A DNA stretch of 64,000 bases from Megamonas hypermegale (GTDB lineage Bacteria > Bacillota > Negativicutes > Selenomonadales > Selenomonadaceae). The notes under the pieces were generated by a model that had not been told where the DNA came from, did no database searches, and worked only from the letters and a program-made list of their open reading frames with translations. Of the stretch, positions 1-8,791 are shown in pieces. Position numbers and translations under genes: made by a program. The stretch is from positions 930,001-994,000 of the forward strand of contig NZ_LT906446.1 of NCBI RefSeq assembly GCF_900187035.1, read 5' to 3'. Position 1 is the first letter of the stretch. Each line of letters begins with the position of its first letter.

Positions 1-413
1 GCTATACCTAAAAATATTTTTCCAGTAAACCACGTTGCCATAAAATCATTACCTAGAGGCTTACCATATTGCACAGAAGCAAAACTCACTACATTTTTAT
101 ACAATTCAGTAGTTTCAGCAGGAGTTGTTGTTACTGAAGTAAAAGATATTCCACATAAATTATTATTTTTAAATTCTAGAGTAATAGGCTGGTCTACTTT
201 TATATCATAAAAATTTAAAGAGAGCACTTGTGCTTCATATTTTGTTATGCCTTCTTCTTCATCATATTCTTCATTTAATAGCTCATATTGCTGCTGAATT
301 TCTTCTATCGGCTGACCGAAATAAAAATCATCAATGCCATTTTCATGCGGGCTAGCAAAAGAACTAGCTGAAAAAAGACAAAGTATACTTAATATCAAAA
401 AAATTTTTCTCAT
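1..413 (-). CDS. Partial secreted protein, paralogue of the next gene (3' end outside window)
   Basis: Open from an ATG at 413 to the window edge, 137 codons seen. An AGGAG 9 bases upstream favours this ATG over the one at 419. Residues 1-20 are a signal peptide (MRKIFLILSILCLFSASSFA). The mature start SPHENGIDDFYFGQPIEEIQ is the same as in the gene at 441-1616, so the two are tandem duplicates. I do not recognise the family. The protein is predicted to be exported and no catalytic motif is visible. The function is unknown. Confidence 0.75.
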   Translation of the reverse strand, partial: MRKIFLILSILCLFSASSFASPHENGIDDFYFGQPIEEIQQQYELLNEEYDEEEGITKYEAQVLSLNFYDIKVDQPITLEFKNNNLCGISFTSVTTTPAETTELYKNVVSFASVQYGKPLGNDFMATWFTGKIFLGI

Positions 414-440
414 ACTCATCCTCTCCTTAGATAAAATATC

Positions 441-1616
441 TTAATCGAATATGCTCATATCCATACCAGCATCTTTTAAAGCTTGTTCATATTCAGGAAT
501 ATTTTTCATTTGACTTTTAAAATTTTCTTTATACTGAGGATTTTCTTTTATCAGATTTTCCAAATAATGCATATTTTGAGGTGATAATTTCAAACCTTTT
601 GCATATTTCAATAATGAAATCTTCGTTATTTCCTGTTGGTATGGTACATAGTAAAAATTTAAATGCCCTCTACCTTCATATAATAATAAGTTCAATCCAT
701 AATCACCATTTATCCATGAATAATTCAACGCACTAAAAGAAGCCATATCAACCGTTTCTGCTATTGGAGTGCCTAAATTTTCTATCAGATGATTTTTTAG
801 CTGTACTCCATCTCCTGTAAACATTAAAAACACATTATTCAAATAATTTTTATAAAAACTCAATTCTGCTTTATCTTCAAAATCTACTCCATACATATAT
901 TGTTCTATTAATGATACACGATAACCCATTATATCCTTATTTTTCATTTGTGTTGGCATAGGATTTCTTATTAAATGAACTCTATTAGAAGTATCTTCTA
1001 ATGAAGCATTTAATTCAACTTTACATAATACATATAATTGTGCTTGTATTGGATTCATATTCTTTGGAAGTTCTATAATAGAAATAGGATTATCTTTTAC
1101 TTCAGAAAAAGATGTATTCTCTGTCTCTGAAATATTTTCAGATATAGTGTTTTCATTCATACTAAAAGATAAATACGCTAAATTATCCTTTACATTATAC
1201 GTCATGCACAAAAATATCTTATCAGTAATCCATTCCATACGATTTTTATGAAATGAACTATTACCATATTGTACTGAAGCAAAATTAGCAATCATTTTTT
1301 GCTGATTTTCTGCTTCAATTAATGAAACTGTATCAGTATTAAATGTTATTTTATATAATCTATTATTTTTAAAACCTAAAGTAATTGGCTGACTAATTTC
1401 CACTCCATAAAAATTTAAAGAAGGAACTTGCGCCTTATAATAGATGACAGCACCATCTTCAACAGTGAATTCTTTATCAGTTAACTCATATTGCTGCTGA
1501 ATTTCTTCTATCGGCTGACCAAAATAAAAATCATCAATACCATTTTCATGCGGACTAGCAAAAGAAATAGATACCATAAAAAACAATGCTATCACTGTTA
1601 AAAATATTTTACGCAA
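441..1616 (-). CDS. Secreted protein of unknown function, 391 aa
   Basis: The reading frame opens with TTG at 1616, supported by AAGGAGG about 9 bases upstream; no better ATG lies near. Residues 1-20 form a signal peptide ending SISFA, followed by a soluble mature chain with no lipobox and no later membrane segment. The N-terminal 130 residues match the partial gene at 1-413, and the matching part is almost identical at the DNA level around the signal peptide. The chain alternates aromatic-rich strands, and a second half (from about residue 180) may be another copy of a similar fold. The family is unknown; an exported substrate-binding or structural role is only a guess. Confidence 0.7.
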   Translation of the reverse strand: MRKIFLTVIALFFMVSISFASPHENGIDDFYFGQPIEEIQQQYELTDKEFTVEDGAVIYYKAQVPSLNFYGVEISQPITLGFKNNRLYKITFNTDTVSLIEAENQQKMIANFASVQYGNSSFHKNRMEWITDKIFLCMTYNVKDNLAYLSFSMNENTISENISETENTSFSEVKDNPISIIELPKNMNPIQAQLYVLCKVELNASLEDTSNRVHLIRNPMPTQMKNKDIMGYRVSLIEQYMYGVDFEDKAELSFYKNYLNNVFLMFTGDGVQLKNHLIENLGTPIAETVDMASFSALNYSWINGDYGLNLLLYEGRGHLNFYYVPYQQEITKISLLKYAKGLKLSPQNMHYLENLIKENPQYKENFKSQMKNIPEYEQALKDAGMDMSIFD

Positions 1617-1643
1617 GATATATTTCCTCCTTTAAAATCTTTA

Positions 1644-2246
1644 TTATTTATCTTTTAGTGCTTTCATATATTCTTCCTTTGTTTCATTAAAATCATCATA
1701 AAAATCCTTTATTGCTCTACCAAACATAGCAAAAGTATCTTTATCAGCTTCGCGTTTTTCTACTTTTTTAAAAATCACTTTACCTGTATTATCTGTTACT
1801 GTAAATTCAGCCGTAAAGTACTGTTCATATACATAATGTTCTTCTGTATATAAATCAAATGTTACAGGTTCATATGTTGTACTTCCATCTGTATCAACAT
1901 ATTCGATATTGGCTTCTTTTGTATATTCTTCTGTTGGTATATATGTTTCTTTTATATTCCATGAAGTTACATTTATCGTTATTACAGCATCTGCTAAAGA
2001 TTTATCATCAATAATTTTAAAATCATCTAATTTATCTTTTTCTTCATCTAATTTAACCAAATTTTTATAAAGCTCTAATTCCCCAATACTACAACTAGGA
2101 GCATAAATTATTTCTGGCTCTACGTAAACTGTTCTTATTTTAGAAAAATCATATACAGGATCTTTCCATGAACTACTTTCTGCAAAAACTATATTAAAAT
2201 TTGATAGCATAACTAGCATAGTTAATATCATAATAAACTTTTTCAC
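1644..2246 (-). CDS. Secreted protein of unknown function, 200 aa (DUF4136-like pattern)
   Basis: A GTG at 2246 preceded by GGGGAG with 9 bases spacing is the likely start; an in-frame ATG at 2267 lies before that ribosome site and is less likely. Residues 1-22 are a signal peptide ending NIVFA. The mature part begins with the pattern YDFSKIRTVYVEPEI, and shares DFxxVxxIYIEPxI, a D/N-KxxADxVITI strand and a DxFAMFGRAIKDF tail with the next gene. The pattern recalls small periplasmic DUF4136-type domains, but I could not confirm that. The product is exported; its partner and role are unknown. Confidence 0.7.
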   Translation of the reverse strand: MKKFIMILTMLVMLSNFNIVFAESSSWKDPVYDFSKIRTVYVEPEIIYAPSCSIGELELYKNLVKLDEEKDKLDDFKIIDDKSLADAVITINVTSWNIKETYIPTEEYTKEANIEYVDTDGSTTYEPVTFDLYTEEHYVYEQYFTAEFTVTDNTGKVIFKKVEKREADKDTFAMFGRAIKDFYDDFNETKEEYMKALKDK

Positions 2247-2277
2247 AAAATCACGCTCCCCATCCATTCATAAATAA

Positions 2278-2847
2278 TTATTTTGTCTTATTTAAACTTT
2301 TAAAGAAATTTTTCATTGCTCTATCAAACATATTAATATTATCTTTTTGTGCTTCACGACTATCTATGTAAACATATGCTACATAACCATCCTTTGTCAT
2401 CGCCGTACCTTTCATTGTAAAATAATCATAGTGTTTATAATATCCACCATATTCCTTAATATATGGTGTTTTTGTATATGCTTTATTTCCATATTCGTCT
2501 TCATAAGTTACAGTAGTATCATAAGCAATATCCGTATATTTATATATATATTCATCTCGTTTATTCCAATCAATAAGACTTATCGTAACTACTAAGTCCG
2601 CTATATCTTTATTTGATACTATTCTATAATCATCTAAGTATTTTTGATTTTTATTTATGACATTTAATAAATCTGCATTTGTTACATCAAACAAATTTAC
2701 ACCTTCATAATATTCAATATCTGGTTCAATATAAATTTTCTCAACTTGCTTAAAATCTACTCCACAATTCTCCCATTCTACATTTTCAGCAAAGACAATT
2801 GATATACTAAAAAATGTTATTATACACATCAATCCTAAAATCCTCAT
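2278..2847 (-). CDS. Secreted protein of unknown function, 189 aa, paralogue of neighbour
   Basis: ATG at 2847 with AAAGGAG 8 bases upstream. Signal peptide 1-20 (ends SIVFA). The body parallels the gene at 1644-2246: VDFKQVEKIYIEPDIEY near residue 30, DIADLVVTISLIDWN near 85, and a C-terminal REAQKDNINMFDRAMKNFF. The pair is therefore a tandem duplication with considerable divergence. The chain is tyrosine-rich in its middle (residues 95-145). Exported, probably soluble in the periplasm. No catalytic motif is visible. Confidence 0.7.
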   Translation of the reverse strand: MRILGLMCIITFFSISIVFAENVEWENCGVDFKQVEKIYIEPDIEYYEGVNLFDVTNADLLNVINKNQKYLDDYRIVSNKDIADLVVTISLIDWNKRDEYIYKYTDIAYDTTVTYEDEYGNKAYTKTPYIKEYGGYYKHYDYFTMKGTAMTKDGYVAYVYIDSREAQKDNINMFDRAMKNFFKSLNKTK

Positions 2848-2901
2848 AAAAAGTACTCCTTTCGATTATCATAATCATCTTCTTATTTACTAATAACATA
2901 A

Positions 2902-3702
2902 TCACTTTCTTTTTTTACTTGCTTCATAATAAGCCATAAAACTAAAAAACACAGCTAACCCAGCATTATCAGCAGCTCTTTTAGATTCTTCAGCTGCAAT
3001 TTTAGAATATTTCTCTGTTTCTCGTGCAGCACGTGTTTGTTCTTCAATTAATTGAGTCTGTCTTTTCAATACTAATTCATATTCATAAAGATTTATAGCA
3101 TCAGTAAGGTTATTGGCTCTACAATCTAATATATAATTTTTTAAAACATTTGAAACTTCCCAATATTTTTGGGGAATTATACATTTAACATACATTTCCT
3201 TTTCAAGTCTATAAAATATATTTTCTTCATTTTCTATTAATTTACATAATATAGGCAAATTAACAACAGCTTCCTCTTTAAATTTATGAAAAATTTTTAA
3301 ATCTTTATTATATGTTTTATCTATTATTATACAATGTCCAATAATTACTATAGATGTTATTAACACAATAAACATAAGAAAGAAAACTTCTTGCTTTTTA
3401 TTAAAATAATATATAAAAATAGGATCTAAAGTACCATAAAAACCTTCTATGAGTGTATAAATTATCCCTACAAAAAAACTTACTGTTAAAAATAAATATC
3501 CAAAATTTTCAATCAAATAAAATATAGGAAATCTAATGTCATCCAAATCTTTCAACCAATTTTTCTTATATTGTTTATCATCTGTATTTAAAGCATTCTG
3601 AATTTCATATTTTTTATTATATAAATTTCTTAATTTAGCTTGTTGAATATGCCATTGTTCACAATAATTAAATGAAATATTTAACGTCTTAATATAATCC
3701 AT
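2902..3702 (-). CDS. Membrane protein of unknown function, 266 aa
   Basis: ATG at 3702 with GGGAG 9 bases before it. A charged N-terminal region (1-55) leads into two transmembrane helices (about 60-85 and 105-130) and then a long cytoplasmic helical part. Residues 205-250 are rich in Glu, Lys, Arg and Ala in a heptad-like pattern (QLIEEQTRAARETEKYSKIA), a probable coiled coil or membrane-lying helix, followed by a short hydrophobic tail. Codon usage is even more A+T-rich than nearby genes. The gene at 3716-4108 lies 13 bases upstream in the same operon. Family not recognised. Confidence 0.6.
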   Translation of the reverse strand: MDYIKTLNISFNYCEQWHIQQAKLRNLYNKKYEIQNALNTDDKQYKKNWLKDLDDIRFPIFYLIENFGYLFLTVSFFVGIIYTLIEGFYGTLDPIFIYYFNKKQEVFFLMFIVLITSIVIIGHCIIIDKTYNKDLKIFHKFKEEAVVNLPILCKLIENEENIFYRLEKEMYVKCIIPQKYWEVSNVLKNYILDCRANNLTDAINLYEYELVLKRQTQLIEEQTRAARETEKYSKIAAEESKRAADNAGLAVFFSFMAYYEASKKRK

Positions 3703-3715
3703 ATAATTAATCTCC

Positions 3716-4108
3716 CTATTGTATTATTTTAGCTTTTTCATATATTTGTAAAGTCAATCCTTCTAATTTGTAAACACTAGGTTGAACAATTTCTTTACTA
3801 TTTTTATTACCAACAGAATGAACTTTAAAATCTTCTATTCTAAATGTTTTTTCTTCATCATTAACATTAACTATATATTCACCATAAGAAAAATCATTAT
3901 TTATTATTAATACTTTAAACTTATTTTGTTCACTATTATAACTTTCTTTTATATAGTAATATTTAACATCTTTATATTCTCCTACATAAATTTTTTCTTG
4001 AGTCAAAACATCATACGGATTTTTATTCATAAATACAATAAATGGAATTATTCCATAAATCATCAAACATACTGCGACAATTGATACTATTATTGCTTTA
4101 ATTGTCAC
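3716..4108 (-). CDS. Small membrane-anchored protein, 130 aa
   Basis: Reads from GTG at 4108 with only a weak GGTG ribosome site. Residues 3-27 are one transmembrane helix; the remaining 100 residues are a beta-rich, lysine-rich domain probably outside the inner membrane (Tyr-rich strands, YVGEYKDVKYYYIKE). It sits just upstream of the two-helix membrane protein at 2902-3702, so the two are likely co-expressed. No family was recognised and no catalytic motif seen. Confidence 0.55.
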   Translation of the reverse strand: MTIKAIIVSIVAVCLMIYGIIPFIVFMNKNPYDVLTQEKIYVGEYKDVKYYYIKESYNSEQNKFKVLIINNDFSYGEYIVNVNDEEKTFRIEDFKVHSVGNKNSKEIVQPSVYKLEGLTLQIYEKAKIIQ

Positions 4109-4187
4109 TTTATTTCACCAACTTTATAAACAATACATTGCTATTAGACTAGCCTTTCTATAATCAATATTTAATAATACAATGACA

Positions 4188-5066
4188 TTAAATTTCAAAC
4201 ATTACAGCATATTTATCAAGAAAATGACTGCGTTGGTTTTCAGCAAGAATTCTATCTGCATCTTCTACTGAAATTACAACATCACATTTATTGACAGTTC
4301 TTTCGCGTACTCCAACAGCCTCAATAACAAGTGGTTTTATTCCAGCACGAGAAGTACCAGCAGATACTTTTCCCCAACCTTCAGGGCCTTTTGCATAACC
4401 AACTACACCATAATCAATAGCATATTTTTTATCAACATTGTATACACCATAAATTGCTCTACCATTTGTATCATAAATAGCTGGACAGAAAGTTCGTACT
4501 AAGCCTTTATCTCTAACATTAATAACAAGTCCGCTATAATTGCCAGAGATACTAACACCTGTACCTGGTACATAATCAACACTTGGAGCTGGAACTGGCA
4601 CAGGAGCTTTATCACCTACAACAGCTGTAATTGCTACATCAGCAATGCTACCTACGCCATAAACTGGCACTGCCATTGTAACTTTATAAACTCCATCTTG
4701 AGCTTCTTCAGAAATAACACGTGCACCTGTAATAATACCATTTACTTTACTATGAATTATATCATCTTTTAACATAAAATTTTCTACAGTAGTTTCAGAA
4801 TCAATAGCAACTCCTTTTACTGATTCTAAAAGATTTCGTTGTGCATCAACAACAGCAGCTCTTCTAGCCAAAACTTTAGCTGCCCCTGCTGGCATTCCAC
4901 TTGGCATAGGACCATAACCTTCAGCAGTGATAGTTTCCATAGAATTATTAATTTGATACTGAGCTGCATATACTGCTGTTGGCGCAATATAATCATTAAG
5001 CGGTGCAGCTCCAACTGCTACAGAAAACACCAAGACACTTGAAAGAGCTATTAAAGACTTTTTCAT
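4188..5066 (-). CDS. LPP20-like exported protein, 292 aa
   Basis: ATG at 5066 with AGAAGGGAAG upstream. Signal peptide 1-34 (ends AVYAA). Residues 45-130 carry the pattern ITAEGYGPMPSG..AKVLARRAAVVDAQRNLLESV and then the VNGIITGARVISEE strand. This is the arrangement of LPP20 / FlgT N-terminal domains, in which an Ala-Arg-rich helix precedes an amyloid-like beta domain. Residues 155-290 form a second domain with ISGNYSGLVINVRDKGL and SRAGIKPLVIEAVG. Family members are envelope proteins, often next to CsgG-like genes. It lies 35 bases downstream of the FlgT-like gene and is likely in the same operon. The molecular role is unknown. Confidence 0.65.
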   Translation of the reverse strand: MKKSLIALSSVLVFSVAVGAAPLNDYIAPTAVYAAQYQINNSMETITAEGYGPMPSGMPAGAAKVLARRAAVVDAQRNLLESVKGVAIDSETTVENFMLKDDIIHSKVNGIITGARVISEEAQDGVYKVTMAVPVYGVGSIADVAITAVVGDKAPVPVPAPSVDYVPGTGVSISGNYSGLVINVRDKGLVRTFCPAIYDTNGRAIYGVYNVDKKYAIDYGVVGYAKGPEGWGKVSAGTSRAGIKPLVIEAVGVRERTVNKCDVVISVEDADRILAENQRSHFLDKYAVMFEI

Positions 5067-5101
5067 AAAAAAACTTCCCTTCTAAAAATAAAATAATAAT
5101 A

Positions 5102-6202
5102 TTAATAAGCGGAAATACTTAAAGTATTATAGGATAGAGATTGCATATTTATATTAAAATTAACTGCTTGATTTAACTGATTAAATAACGTTTGTGGGGT
5201 TCCAGAAAATTTAACAGAAAGTGTTGCTTTGCCATTGTTATAATCTGTTACCATGGAACTTTCTACTCCACGTATTTTTTGCATAGCACTATTAATAGCA
5301 TTTATTTTATTAAAATCCGTTGCTGTTACTACTACTTCTAAATTTTGACGAGTACTACTGCCATAATTTAAAAGTTTTTCGACTATATAATCTCCCATTT
5401 TTTCGCCAGCATCATTTAAAGCTTTTTTCCCAGCAATATATTCAGTTAAATCCGCTGCTGTACCATATGTACCATTAGCAGAAATAATTTGACCTGTTTT
5501 AGCAATAAAAATCTTTGCTTCTAAGCGCGCTTTACAAGAAACGATACCTGTATTTCTTCCAGTTGGTAAAAATTTACCAACATCACCAACACCTTCACTA
5601 AAAGCTTCTCCAACGATTAAAATATCCACGTTACGACTTCTTGCTATATTTTCCATATCTTGTTTTGTAAGCGCACTTAATTTATTTAAGTTATAACGTG
5701 TATCACTAATATCTGTAATACGAGAGAAACCTGCATCAATCAATTTCCTAATTACCGCTGTTTCGCCTGCAGGGTCTGGAACACGTGCTCTAATATGATA
5801 TTCTGGAATAACTACAGCGATTTTAGGGTCACGTAATTGACGATTAATAATGCCCAAACGCGTAAGTTCATTCATTAATTTAGAATTAGGATTAGTATCC
5901 ACATTTGCATTAATCATAACTTCATAAGTTCCATCACCGTTCATTTTTTGAGATACAACCGTATAATTTGTAATATAACCACGTGATTGAGTATAAATTT
6001 CATCATTTATAAGCATATTATTTTGTACTAATGTAGCTGAATCAACTAATGTTCCTACAGCTTGTTCAACTGCATTTCTAAGCGCATCACGTTCAGCTTC
6101 ATCAGTAGTTGTCCCGTAACCAGATACAGTAATTTGTTGAGCTGAGGCTACATTAAACCAACAAAAAAACACCATTATACATATATAAATGATTTTTTTC
6201 AT
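5102..6202 (-). CDS. FlgT N-terminal-like exported protein, 366 aa
   Basis: ATG at 6202 preceded by GAGGTG. Signal peptide 1-21 (ends VASA). Residues 22-115 show the FlgT/LPP20 N-terminal pattern: VSGYGTTTDEAERDALRNAV, then IYTQSRGYITNYTVVSQK and DGTYEVMINANVD. A central domain (125-265) has KIAVVIPEYHIR and a strand reading DILIVGEAF that resembles the nucleotide-fold-like core of CsgG/FlgT middle domains. A third domain follows (280-366, VVVTATDFNKINAINSAMQK). No other flagellar gene occurs in the window, so a flagellar role is not supported. It starts 3 bases after the CsgG-like gene, in one transcript. Confidence 0.65.
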   Translation of the reverse strand: MKKIIYICIMVFFCWFNVASAQQITVSGYGTTTDEAERDALRNAVEQAVGTLVDSATLVQNNMLINDEIYTQSRGYITNYTVVSQKMNGDGTYEVMINANVDTNPNSKLMNELTRLGIINRQLRDPKIAVVIPEYHIRARVPDPAGETAVIRKLIDAGFSRITDISDTRYNLNKLSALTKQDMENIARSRNVDILIVGEAFSEGVGDVGKFLPTGRNTGIVSCKARLEAKIFIAKTGQIISANGTYGTAADLTEYIAGKKALNDAGEKMGDYIVEKLLNYGSSTRQNLEVVVTATDFNKINAINSAMQKIRGVESSMVTDYNNGKATLSVKFSGTPQTLFNQLNQAVNFNINMQSLSYNTLSISAY

Positions 6203-6205
6203 GGA

Positions 6206-7057
6206 TTATTCACCTCGTTTAATTTTATCGCCAGTTTTAAACGCAGATTTCTCTTTCTTTATTTCAGCTATAGAATAATTTGATTTAACATCTTTAACTT
6301 TTACCGTACCAAGAGTTGTTTCTTTTATTCCGAGAATTTCACCCGTTACTGGATGTACGAGAGGCGCACCTTCTTTATAAATAGTATACGTATCACCTTC
6401 ACGAACGCCATTATCATAGCCCAAATCAAAATAAACAACGTCTTCAGCTCTATCTACATTCAAAACTGTTCCTGTAAGAGGTGTTATTTCATTCATCTTT
6501 TCTAAAACTTTATTAGCTGCATTATGCGCTGCTCCACTTATTAAAACACGTTCATTAACAGAAACTCCTGGTGAATACATTTGACTATCTGTATCAGAAA
6601 TAACATCAGAATACAATACTAAACCTGTTTTGTTATCAACAAAGTGCATTTCAAATGCTACTTTACCTTTATATCCTCTGTATAAAATATTATCAAACGG
6701 TATTACTTCGGCTGTAAGTACTTTTCCAACTAAAGTATAATCGGCGCCAGATAAATTACCTATTTCAATAGCTGATTTGCTATCTACGACACCAGAATTT
6801 TGTAATCCAAGTTCACGAAAAATTTGGTCTAATTGAGCACGTTCTACTACTTCATAATTTTTATTTTGTACAAGTCCGCTAAATATATTAGATTCTAAAT
6901 TACTACAAGCTAAAGTACCATAACGAGATTTAGCTCCATTAGCAAAAGTTCCTATTGCCACTTTTTTTACTGCTGCTTCAGTAGTTATAAATGTTCCCAT
7001 TAAAATAAAAACAAATACAAAAATACTTGTTAACCGTAAAATAAATTTCTGTTTCAT
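6206..7057 (-). CDS. CsgG/HfaB-like exported protein with FlgT-type C-terminal domain
   Basis: I place the start at ATG 7057 because GGGAGG lies 7 bases upstream; the longer frame (TTG at 7072) would begin inside that site. Signal peptide 1-29, no lipobox cysteine, which differs from curli CsgG, a lipoprotein. Residues 30-190 fit the CsgG family: VAIGTFANG, the Arg-rich ..NYEVVERAQLDQIFRELGL, then GADYTLVGKVLTAEV and a VLYSDVISDT strand. Residues 195-283 (GTVLNVDRAEDVVYFDLGYD and TLGTVKVKDV) match a FlgT C-terminal-like domain. First gene of a three-gene envelope operon. Possibly part of an outer-membrane pore or assembly device, by inference only. Confidence 0.7.
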   Translation of the reverse strand: MKQKFILRLTSIFVFVFILMGTFITTEAAVKKVAIGTFANGAKSRYGTLACSNLESNIFSGLVQNKNYEVVERAQLDQIFRELGLQNSGVVDSKSAIEIGNLSGADYTLVGKVLTAEVIPFDNILYRGYKGKVAFEMHFVDNKTGLVLYSDVISDTDSQMYSPGVSVNERVLISGAAHNAANKVLEKMNEITPLTGTVLNVDRAEDVVYFDLGYDNGVREGDTYTIYKEGAPLVHPVTGEILGIKETTLGTVKVKDVKSNYSIAEIKKEKSAFKTGDKIKRGE

Positions 7058-7098
7058 ATGTAATCCTCCCAAAATAAATAAAAAATAAAATTATTATG

Positions 7099-7144
7099 TT
7101 ATAGTAATTAAGTCAGCCTAAAACAACTGGCTTAATTACTATAA
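7099..7144. terminator. Long near-perfect hairpin between repeat-protein gene and CsgG-like operon
   Basis: TTATAGTAATTAAGTCAG at 7099-7116 pairs with its near-perfect complement at 7127-7144: 18 pairs with one G-T, loop of 10. It lies downstream of the gene at 7160-8791 and upstream of the CsgG-like gene. There is no clean U-run on either strand, so it may be a weak terminator, an mRNA-stability hairpin or an operator. Confidence 0.55.
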
Positions 7145-7159
7145 TAGCCTATGTCATCC

Positions 7160-8791
7160 TTATAAAGTTGTCACATCATAAAAACTGTCTGCTTGATTAT
7201 CAAAAAATCTCATATTATATGCCATATAAAAAGCCATTTCCGCCATTGCAACAATATCTGGTTCTGTTGTATTTAAATCCATATAATTAGAATTTTTGTA
7301 TTTATAATGATAATCGCCATATAAATTAGTAAATACTACACTATGTGCATCAATATTATATTTAAATTCCCATGTATTCATTTTTCTATCCATCGGCTTA
7401 GAAACATCTGCACTAAATTCATTGACCTTTATTGTGTAATACGGTGGATTATAATTTGAAACTTTTAATGAAGTTTTATCCAAATAATAATCAACATGAT
7501 TATCACTTACATTAGAATAATTATTGCAATAAATCTGCACATATTTTTCTGGATAATCAAGATCAAGGCCAGCACAATCAAAGCCCATATCATTTAACTC
7601 AGAACTTAATTTAGCATTATCTTTAGCAAAACTCATTCGTTCTAAGAATATCCCTGTCAAAATTCTTTCCCATACACTTGGTTTATCTTCTTTATATTCA
7701 TAATCAGGTGGTGGTGGAGGTGCTTCTCTAGATGATAAAATTACCGGTTTAGGAGATACTACTGTAAATTTTTTCAACGATTTTCTTGGTAATTTATCTC
7801 TTTTCGGTTTATTTATCGGTGGTTGAAAACCCTTATTTTCCAGCTTATGTTCTGGTCTTCTTCCTACATTCATATTTGGCTTTTGCCCTGGTTTAGTCAT
7901 CGGCGGCTTAAAACCATTATTTCCTGGCTTATGTTCCGGTCTTCTTCCCACATTCATATTTGGCTTTTGCCCTGGTTTAGTCATCGGCGGTTTAAAACCA
8001 TTATTTCCTGGCTTATGTTCCGGTCTTCTTCCCACATTCATATTTGGCTTTTGTCCTGGTTTAGTCATCGGTGGTTTAAAACCATTATTTTCCGCTCTAT
8101 GTTCTGGTTTTCTTCCTACATTCATATTTGGCTTTTGCCCTGGTTTAGTCATCGGTGGTTTAAAACCATTATTTTCCGCTCTATGTTCTGGTTTTCTTCC
8201 CACATTCATATTTGGCTTTTGCCCTGGTTTAGTCATCGGCGGTTTAAAACCATTATTTCCTGGCTTATGTTCCGGTCTTCTTCCCACATTCATATTTGGC
8301 TTTTGTCCTGGTTTAGTCATCGGTGGTTTAAAATTATTATTACCTGATTTATTTACATTTACTTTCGATACTGGTTTATGTACTGGTGGATTTGGTCTAT
8401 TTGGTCTATTTACATTGGATTTTACTGGTGGTCTATGTACCGACGGCTTTGGTCTATTAGCATTAGGCTTTGTTACTGGTTTATGCATTGGCGGTTTCGG
8501 TTTATTTACATTAGGCCTTGTTGGTGGTTTATGCATTGTTGGTTTTGGTCTATTTACATTAGGCCTTGTTGGTGGTTTATGCATTGTTGGCTTTGGTCTA
8601 TTCACATTTGGTTTTGCTGCTGGTTTATGCTCTGTTTTCTTTGGTGGTGGTTGTTTCTTTTCCGTTTGATTAGGCGGTGGTGGTGGTACAGGTGCAGCCT
8701 CTGCCCAATTTATATGTATATAATTTAAAGACGTACAAAGGAAAAAAGCTATTGATACCACACCTATTTTCTTTTTTAAATTTTTTAACAT
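7160..8791 (-). CDS. Secreted Pro/Lys-rich tandem-repeat protein, 543 aa
   Basis: ATG at 8791 with AAAGGGG upstream. Signal peptide 1-32 (ends NWAEA). Residues 33-150 are Pro/Lys-rich with about five 16-residue units of the type PNVNRPKPTMHKPPTR. Residues 152-325 are six near-identical 28-residue units (NNGFKPPMTKPGQKPNMNVG then RRPEHKPG or RKPEHRAE), with a degenerate seventh. The basic proline-rich stalk would be extended and could bind peptidoglycan, outer-membrane anionic polymers or partner proteins. The C-terminal 180 residues form a globular domain with many Tyr/Asn and no known motif (NSNYMDLNTTEPDIVAMAEM near the end). Expressed upstream of the CsgG-like operon. Function unknown. Confidence 0.75.
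   Translation of the reverse strand: MLKNLKKKIGVVSIAFFLCTSLNYIHINWAEAAPVPPPPPNQTEKKQPPPKKTEHKPAAKPNVNRPKPTMHKPPTRPNVNRPKPTMHKPPTRPNVNKPKPPMHKPVTKPNANRPKPSVHRPPVKSNVNRPNRPNPPVHKPVSKVNVNKSGNNNFKPPMTKPGQKPNMNVGRRPEHKPGNNGFKPPMTKPGQKPNMNVGRKPEHRAENNGFKPPMTKPGQKPNMNVGRKPEHRAENNGFKPPMTKPGQKPNMNVGRRPEHKPGNNGFKPPMTKPGQKPNMNVGRRPEHKPGNNGFKPPMTKPGQKPNMNVGRRPEHKLENKGFQPPINKPKRDKLPRKSLKKFTVVSPKPVILSSREAPPPPPDYEYKEDKPSVWERILTGIFLERMSFAKDNAKLSSELNDMGFDCAGLDLDYPEKYVQIYCNNYSNVSDNHVDYYLDKTSLKVSNYNPPYYTIKVNEFSADVSKPMDRKMNTWEFKYNIDAHSVVFTNLYGDYHYKYKNSNYMDLNTTEPDIVAMAEMAFYMAYNMRFFDNQADSFYDVTTL
7825..8345. repeat. 84-bp coding tandem repeats, about 6 copies
   Basis: Six consecutive 84-bp units with only a few substitutions, encoding the 28-residue repeats of the protein at 7160-8791. 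Two sub-types alternate: units ending in GRRPEHKPG and units ending in GRKPEHRAE. The sub-types are grouped, which suggests recent unit duplication or gene conversion. Copy number is likely to vary between strains. Confidence 0.85.
8385..8640. repeat. 48-bp coding tandem repeats, about 5 copies
   Basis: A second, more diverged repeat array upstream of the 84-bp array in the same gene. It codes for 16-residue units of the type PNVNRPKPxMHKPPTR. The two copies around 8510-8600 are almost identical and the outer copies are more divergent. Confidence 0.75.

Follow-up and report, generated by a model that had tools for sequence, protein, structure and literature searches.

A three-gene locus of FlgT- and FlgP-related proteins in Megamonas hypermegale and its apparent association with the outer membrane in Bacillota

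Introduction

FlgT and FlgP have been studied as parts of the flagellum. FlgT belongs to the H-ring of the Vibrio polar flagellum (3w1e, 8z5n, 9ydo) and carries its N-terminal (N), middle (M) and C-terminal (C) parts in one protein, while FlgP makes up the basal disk of Campylobacter and Vibrio (9hmf, 8z5n). Entry 9hmf is Campylobacter FlgP (PMC12222027). The same study places the ring-forming hairpin of FlgP between the SHS2 helix and the second strand, and describes ring formation as correlating with the hairpin (PMC12222027). Single parts of these proteins resemble those of other envelope systems, including the type IV pilus-associated protein TsaP (3jc8, 6ve2), the curli pore CsgG (4uv3, 6l7a), PelC and the N-terminal domain of TolB.

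Here, we describe a locus of Megamonas hypermegale (assembly GCF_900187035.1) located in positions 930,001 to 994,000 of contig NZ_LT906446.1, a stretch of 64,000 nucleotides that is referred to as the window. Three genes on the - strand at window positions 4188-7072, encoding a CsgG-like protein (CsgGL), an LPP20-like protein (LPP20L) and a FlgP-like protein (FlgPL), constitute what we call the core trio. With moderate confidence, we regard the trio as a relative of the FlgT/FlgP outer-membrane rings that consists of three parts and is not flagellar, and we infer that it would form a ring under the outer membrane that braces a client structure. The parts are known protein families; within the searched literature, what looks new is that they are grouped in a module that is not flagellar. 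In the open-licence literature, no paper was found that joins FlgT, CsgG and LPP20, nor any title or abstract that opens on a non-flagellar FlgT/FlgP module. FlgP relatives in Negativicutes are already known, since Acetonema longum FlgP served as a BLAST query in PMC5758724. The literature covered also included PMC11756786, PMC13023049 and PMC11870540.

Domain Structure of the Three Proteins

The genes of the core trio are as follows:

6206..7072, - strand: CsgGL, 283 amino acids (aa) from the ATG at 7057 or 288 aa from the TTG at 7072; exported; CsgG/LpoB/TolB-N-type domain followed by FlgT_C (Pfam, PDB profile matches, AlphaFold model)
5102..6202, - strand: LPP20L, 366 aa; exported; FlgP/FlgT_N-type SHS2 domain, FlgT_M/TolB-N-type domain and small C-terminal alpha/beta domain (Pfam, PDB profile, model)
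4188..5066, - strand: FlgPL, previously labeled FlgT-like, 292 aa; exported; FlgP-type domain and C-terminal domain resembling 5jir 128-259 (PDB profile matches)

The genes are separated by gaps of only 3 and 35 bases and therefore likely form one operon, as the initial annotation of this DNA had proposed. In Pfam, CsgGL matches CsgG (7.2e-10), LpoB (6.4e-9) and FlgT_C (3.3e-7), with CsgG and FlgT_C above the cut-off. Its matches among PDB profiles include TsaP (6e-10), FlgT (1.4e-8), CsgG (2e-5) and LpoB (5e-4), and a second profile search ranked CsgG ahead of FlgT. CsgG and LpoB are each matched by 20/20 relatives of CsgGL, FlgT_C by 13/20 and FlgT_M by 5/20. LPP20L matches the FlgP profile (9hmf, 1.7e-7), and its relatives match FlgT_N (5/18), LPP20 (3/18) and FlgO (1/18). 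The strongest profile values belong to FlgPL, which matches Campylobacter FlgP (9hmf) at 2.6e-19 and Vibrio FlgP (8z5n) at 1.6e-10; three of its five relatives match LPP20 in Pfam. The C-terminal half of FlgPL resembles residues 128-259 of 5jir, a protein named OOP family OmpA-OmpF porin (6e-8). An SHS2 domain is common to LPP20L and FlgPL (hhalign probability 98%).

These matches revise the gene labels in part. The CsgG-like and LPP20-like assignments stand by Pfam, LPP20 with a value under the cut-off, while the protein at 4188-5066 that had been called FlgT-like is a relative of the basal-disk protein FlgP with an extra domain, and it is CsgGL that bears the FlgT_C domain. Unlike FlgP, FlgPL has the additional C-terminal domain, lacks a lipobox and occurs in a genome without a flagellum.

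The LpoB matches suggest another explanation, in which these proteins are LpoB-like periplasmic activators of wall synthesis that act singly and form no ring. This is consistent with the Pfam value of the window protein and with the recurrence of the match in every relative. However, the NCBIfam LpoB equivalog scores 36.2 bits against a cut-off of 110.55, the lipobox is missing, and single activators would leave the conserved FlgP-like partners unexplained, which makes this reading quite improbable.

The predicted folds allow a closer comparison with FlgT. The AlphaFold model of CsgGL (predicted local distance difference test, pLDDT, 87.5) reaches VIA Z scores of 13.2 against FlgT 91-354 and 13.6 against the FlgT of the LPHT ring, while residues 22-279 of the LPP20L model (pLDDT 75.3) align to FlgT 1-264 with VIA Z 10.6. 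The pair thus spans the whole of FlgT, with the middle-type domain occurring twice. By these models and profiles, CsgGL corresponds to FlgT M and C, whereas LPP20L corresponds to FlgT N and M and has a tail in addition. Counterparts of N, M and C are shared in order between LPP20L and CsgGL, but unlike FlgT they are carried by two genes in a genome that has no flagellum. The C-terminal barrel of CsgGL is also like that of TsaP, as reflected in the profile value given above, although no LysM domain was found in CsgGL, which has a CsgG-type domain instead.

PelC and TolB equal FlgT as matches to the CsgG-type domain of CsgGL (Z 13.2-13.6); PelC and the TolB N-terminal domain share its fold at Z of about 13 but have different domain partners. 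The likeness to PelC (Z 13.5 over 124 residues, root-mean-square deviation (rmsd) 2.4), which extends to domain 2 of LPP20L (Z 10.7), would fit a role for CsgGL in the export of a surface polysaccharide, similar to that of the PelC dodecamer under PelB. In a single case (L022), sugar-nucleotide-like open reading frames (ORFs) lie near trio genes. However, no polysaccharide operon stands beside the trio in the window, and PelC is not known to have FlgT_C or FlgP-like partners; a part in polysaccharide export is accordingly given a low probability.

Pore or Ring

CsgG-type proteins form the curli pore, and a CsgG-type pore was part of the initial annotation. CsgGL shares with CsgG the core alpha/beta fold (VIA Z 10.4-12.3), and a Pfam CsgG match is found in all 20 relatives, which speaks for a pore of the curli type that secretes a surface fibre. 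In CsgG, the first membrane hairpin lies between the conserved glycine and the TG turn. This segment has 34 residues in CsgGL and 35 in FlgT, as opposed to 44 in CsgG; it is longer in some relatives of CsgGL, so that the statement on hairpin length concerns the window protein first, and the second hairpin was compared by eye only. Moreover, CsgGL bears a FlgT_C domain, and its N-terminal region contains no cysteine and hence no lipobox, in agreement with what had been noted before. CsgF was found in 0/60 genomes, our own included, in searches that did not extend to CsgA and CsgE. On these grounds, the curli pore was rejected; a pore function for CsgGL is not supported by its sequence, and curli-type secretion is the most improbable of the explanations considered here.

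Ring formation by the trio is plausible on the basis of profile alignments and models. The alignment of FlgPL with FlgP (9hmf, 8z5n) is colinear and ungapped across the hairpin region of the SHS2 domain, and the LPP20L model has, at low confidence, two extra strands in this region.

Conservation of the Trio in Bacillota

The distribution of the trio was followed in 20 named loci, in a relatives set of 60 genomes and in a phylum set of 398 Bacillota genomes, with LPP20L as the marker gene and E<=1e-10 as the threshold for carriers in the phylum sample. Of the named loci, 20/20 have a CsgGL gene no more than 3 kb from LPP20L, and 6/20 also have FlgPL within this distance. The gene order changes between these loci, and the CsgGL gene is inverted in four of them; the linkage is therefore argued to be kept by selection. 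Within the relatives set (E<=0.001), CsgGL occurs in 20 genomes, LPP20L in 30 and FlgPL in 35, and LPP20L is found within 1.5 kb of 16 of the 27 CsgGL matches when the weakest LPP20L matches are left out. The phylum sample contains 25 carriers of LPP20L. All 24 carriers besides our own genome were examined, and within 3 kb of LPP20L there is a CsgGL gene in 18, a FlgPL gene in 17 and at least one of the two in 21. A further set of 45 loci gave CsgGL in 42/45, FlgPL in 25/45 and both in 23/45 within the same distance; it counts three genomes twice (L023/L058, L026/L062, L030/L074) and includes two loci chosen for their known neighbours (L099 and L105), and the 20 named loci and 24 phylum genomes are preferred. 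The trio is a conserved module that is kept together across many Bacillota families, and its culturable carriers include Selenomonas ruminantium, Sporomusa and Propionispira. A comparison of neighbourhoods had been suggested as a check on the proposal of a distinct outer-envelope system, and the genes turn out to be neither scattered nor independent.

In Selenomonadaceae, two or three tandem CsgG-like genes stand beside LPP20L in six loci (L056, L057, L059, L062, L063, L065), and eleven matches to the FlgP-like query occur in one genome (G028), representing an expansion.

The host genome, which is complete at 2.23 Mb, contains a second trio (C1:2121014-2130666, locus L021) that is 57-68% identical to the one in the window. 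Both trios are full-length, with all six genes open and free of stops. Inside the second trio, at L021:2863-5814, five near-identical ORFs of 70-72 aa (82-96% identical) lie within 3 kb and look like a repeated element.

Outer Membrane and Flagellum

Omp85 is present in the host genome and in 102 of the 398 Bacillota genomes, and all 25 carriers of LPP20L are among these (hypergeometric 1.4e-16, a value whose real weight is lowered by kinship; the carriers span nine families). In this sample, the marker gene is confined to Omp85-bearing Bacillota, which agrees with the earlier proposal of an outer-envelope system, and it is independent of flagella.

The obvious alternative is that the trio is a flagellar accessory of the H-ring or basal-disk kind in motile relatives and persists as a relic in this non-motile genome, in which neither FliG nor FlhA nor CsgF was found. 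The homology to FlgT and FlgP argues for such a role, and FliG is present in 22/25 carriers of the phylum sample; yet FliG is also present in 64/77 Omp85-positive genomes without the marker (p=0.75). A link to flagella is best supported by two genomes in which flagellar genes are near the trio. In one (L098 of G206, positions 3-8065), FlgPL and LPP20L are paired at a distance of about 3-6 kb from ORFs resembling flgM, flgN, flgK and flgL by eye, and in the other (G028), a flagellar cluster, likewise recognized by eye, begins about 8 kb from trio genes. However, LPP20L is within 30 kb of FliG in just 2/42 genomes that have both. A genus of two sampled genomes (g10; G010, G278) keeps LPP20L-CsgGL without FliG or FlhA, and our own genome retains two full-length trios without stops; both observations count against a flagellar accessory. 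We thus regard a flagellar accessory role as unlikely, though less so than the other alternatives, and it is apparently the outer membrane, not the flagellum, that the trio goes with.

Possible Function of the Trio

Under the reading that we prefer, in which the trio is a non-flagellar relative of the FlgT/FlgP rings, all three proteins would be exported to the periplasm, where FlgPL and the SHS2 domain of LPP20L may oligomerise beneath the outer membrane as a ring or disk through the FlgP-type beta-hairpin insert. The TolB-N/CsgG-type domains of LPP20L (FlgT N and M) and CsgGL (FlgT M and C) would attach these two proteins to the ring, and the FlgT_C barrel could touch a client that is in the outer membrane or bound to the wall. 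The ring would then be a bushing or brace for a structure that spans the outer membrane.

Besides the flagellar neighbours and the PelC and TolB matches given above, several observations weigh against this proposal. The Pfam match of LPP20L to LPP20 (5.5e-5) is slightly under the curated cut-off, and those of FlgPL to FlgT_N (0.0059) and LPP20 (0.095) are both under theirs. In the VIA matches of CsgGL and LPP20L to FlgT, the rmsd is 11-12 and the domain angles differ, and the claim is therefore restricted to domain order. The hairpin region of LPP20L, on which its part in a ring would depend, is modeled with a pLDDT of about 33-34. As for linkage, three carriers from one genus (G016, G302, G371) have LPP20L with neither partner nearby, and in the second trio of our own genome, about 6 kb separate LPP20L from its two partners. 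One further genome of the genus was searched (G001), and none of the three genes was found there; the module would therefore be readily gained or lost.

The single secretin of our own genome is a candidate client because TsaP has the same C-terminal barrel as CsgGL, and TsaP has a role in the pilus. Secretins are present in 57/60 genomes of the relatives set, our own included. A secretin as an obligatory partner was rejected, as G015 has CsgGL, LPP20L and FlgPL on contig C36 and no secretin, although this is weak evidence from a draft genome.

More broadly, it is possible, if doubtful, that diderm Bacillota hold an old, self-standing outer-membrane ring machine made of FlgT/FlgO/FlgP parts with a different or variable client, and that flagellar rings were recruited from such envelope rings and not the reverse. 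If true, a module of FlgT and FlgP relatives tied to the outer membrane would make the origin of the flagellar outer rings testable, and diderm Bacillota would gain an envelope structure to seek by cryo-tomography.

Neighbouring Genes

The trio lies in a block (1-8791) of ten ORFs in the window's ORF list, all on the - strand and all with an N-terminal signal peptide or membrane anchor as judged by eye without a signal-peptide program; the block had indeed been described as one of exported and anchored products. The seven ORFs outside the trio have no Pfam or NCBIfam match above cut-off:

7160..8791, - strand: repeat protein of 543 aa, secreted and rich in Pro, Lys and Asn; neighbour outside the conserved module (tandem repeats, relatives search)
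3716..4108, - strand: small protein with a membrane anchor and no family assignment; neighbour only (ORF list, Pfam)
2902..3702, - strand: membrane protein with two hydrophobic spans and no family assignment; neighbour only (WH1 match at 0.006 under cut-off, judged to be chance)
2278-2847 and 1644-2267, - strand: two exported paralogues, no family, 29% identical; neighbours only
441-1616 and 3-419 (the latter truncated at the window edge), - strand: exported paralogues that belong to a local tandem family; neighbours only

The paralogues at 1644-2847 were considered as additional CsgG-type proteins and dropped, with a profile comparison to CsgGL giving a probability of 3.3%. Scans for promoters and terminators gave sites no more numerous than in shuffles. 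The first ORF crosses the window edge and extends upstream at L031:11859-12419, and further secreted-protein genes are found beyond it; the block therefore does not stop at position 1. Upstream of that position, L031:8151-13616 holds tandem families of small secreted proteins. One family has three copies there (31-41% identical), the family of window positions 3-1616 has about four, and those scanned gave no Pfam match above cut-off.

The repeat protein had been put forward as a partner of the operon, with co-occurrence as the check. It adjoins the trio in our own genome only, apart from a single weak case in G036 at a distance of 2.4 kb, and its relatives cover just the C-terminal ~110 aa; it was rejected as a partner of the module. 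Its gene is built of tandem units of 84 bp (6.4 copies) and 48 bp (5.1 copies). The 84-bp repeat, at window positions 7806-8346, has 92% matches, and its copy number therefore likely differs between strains.

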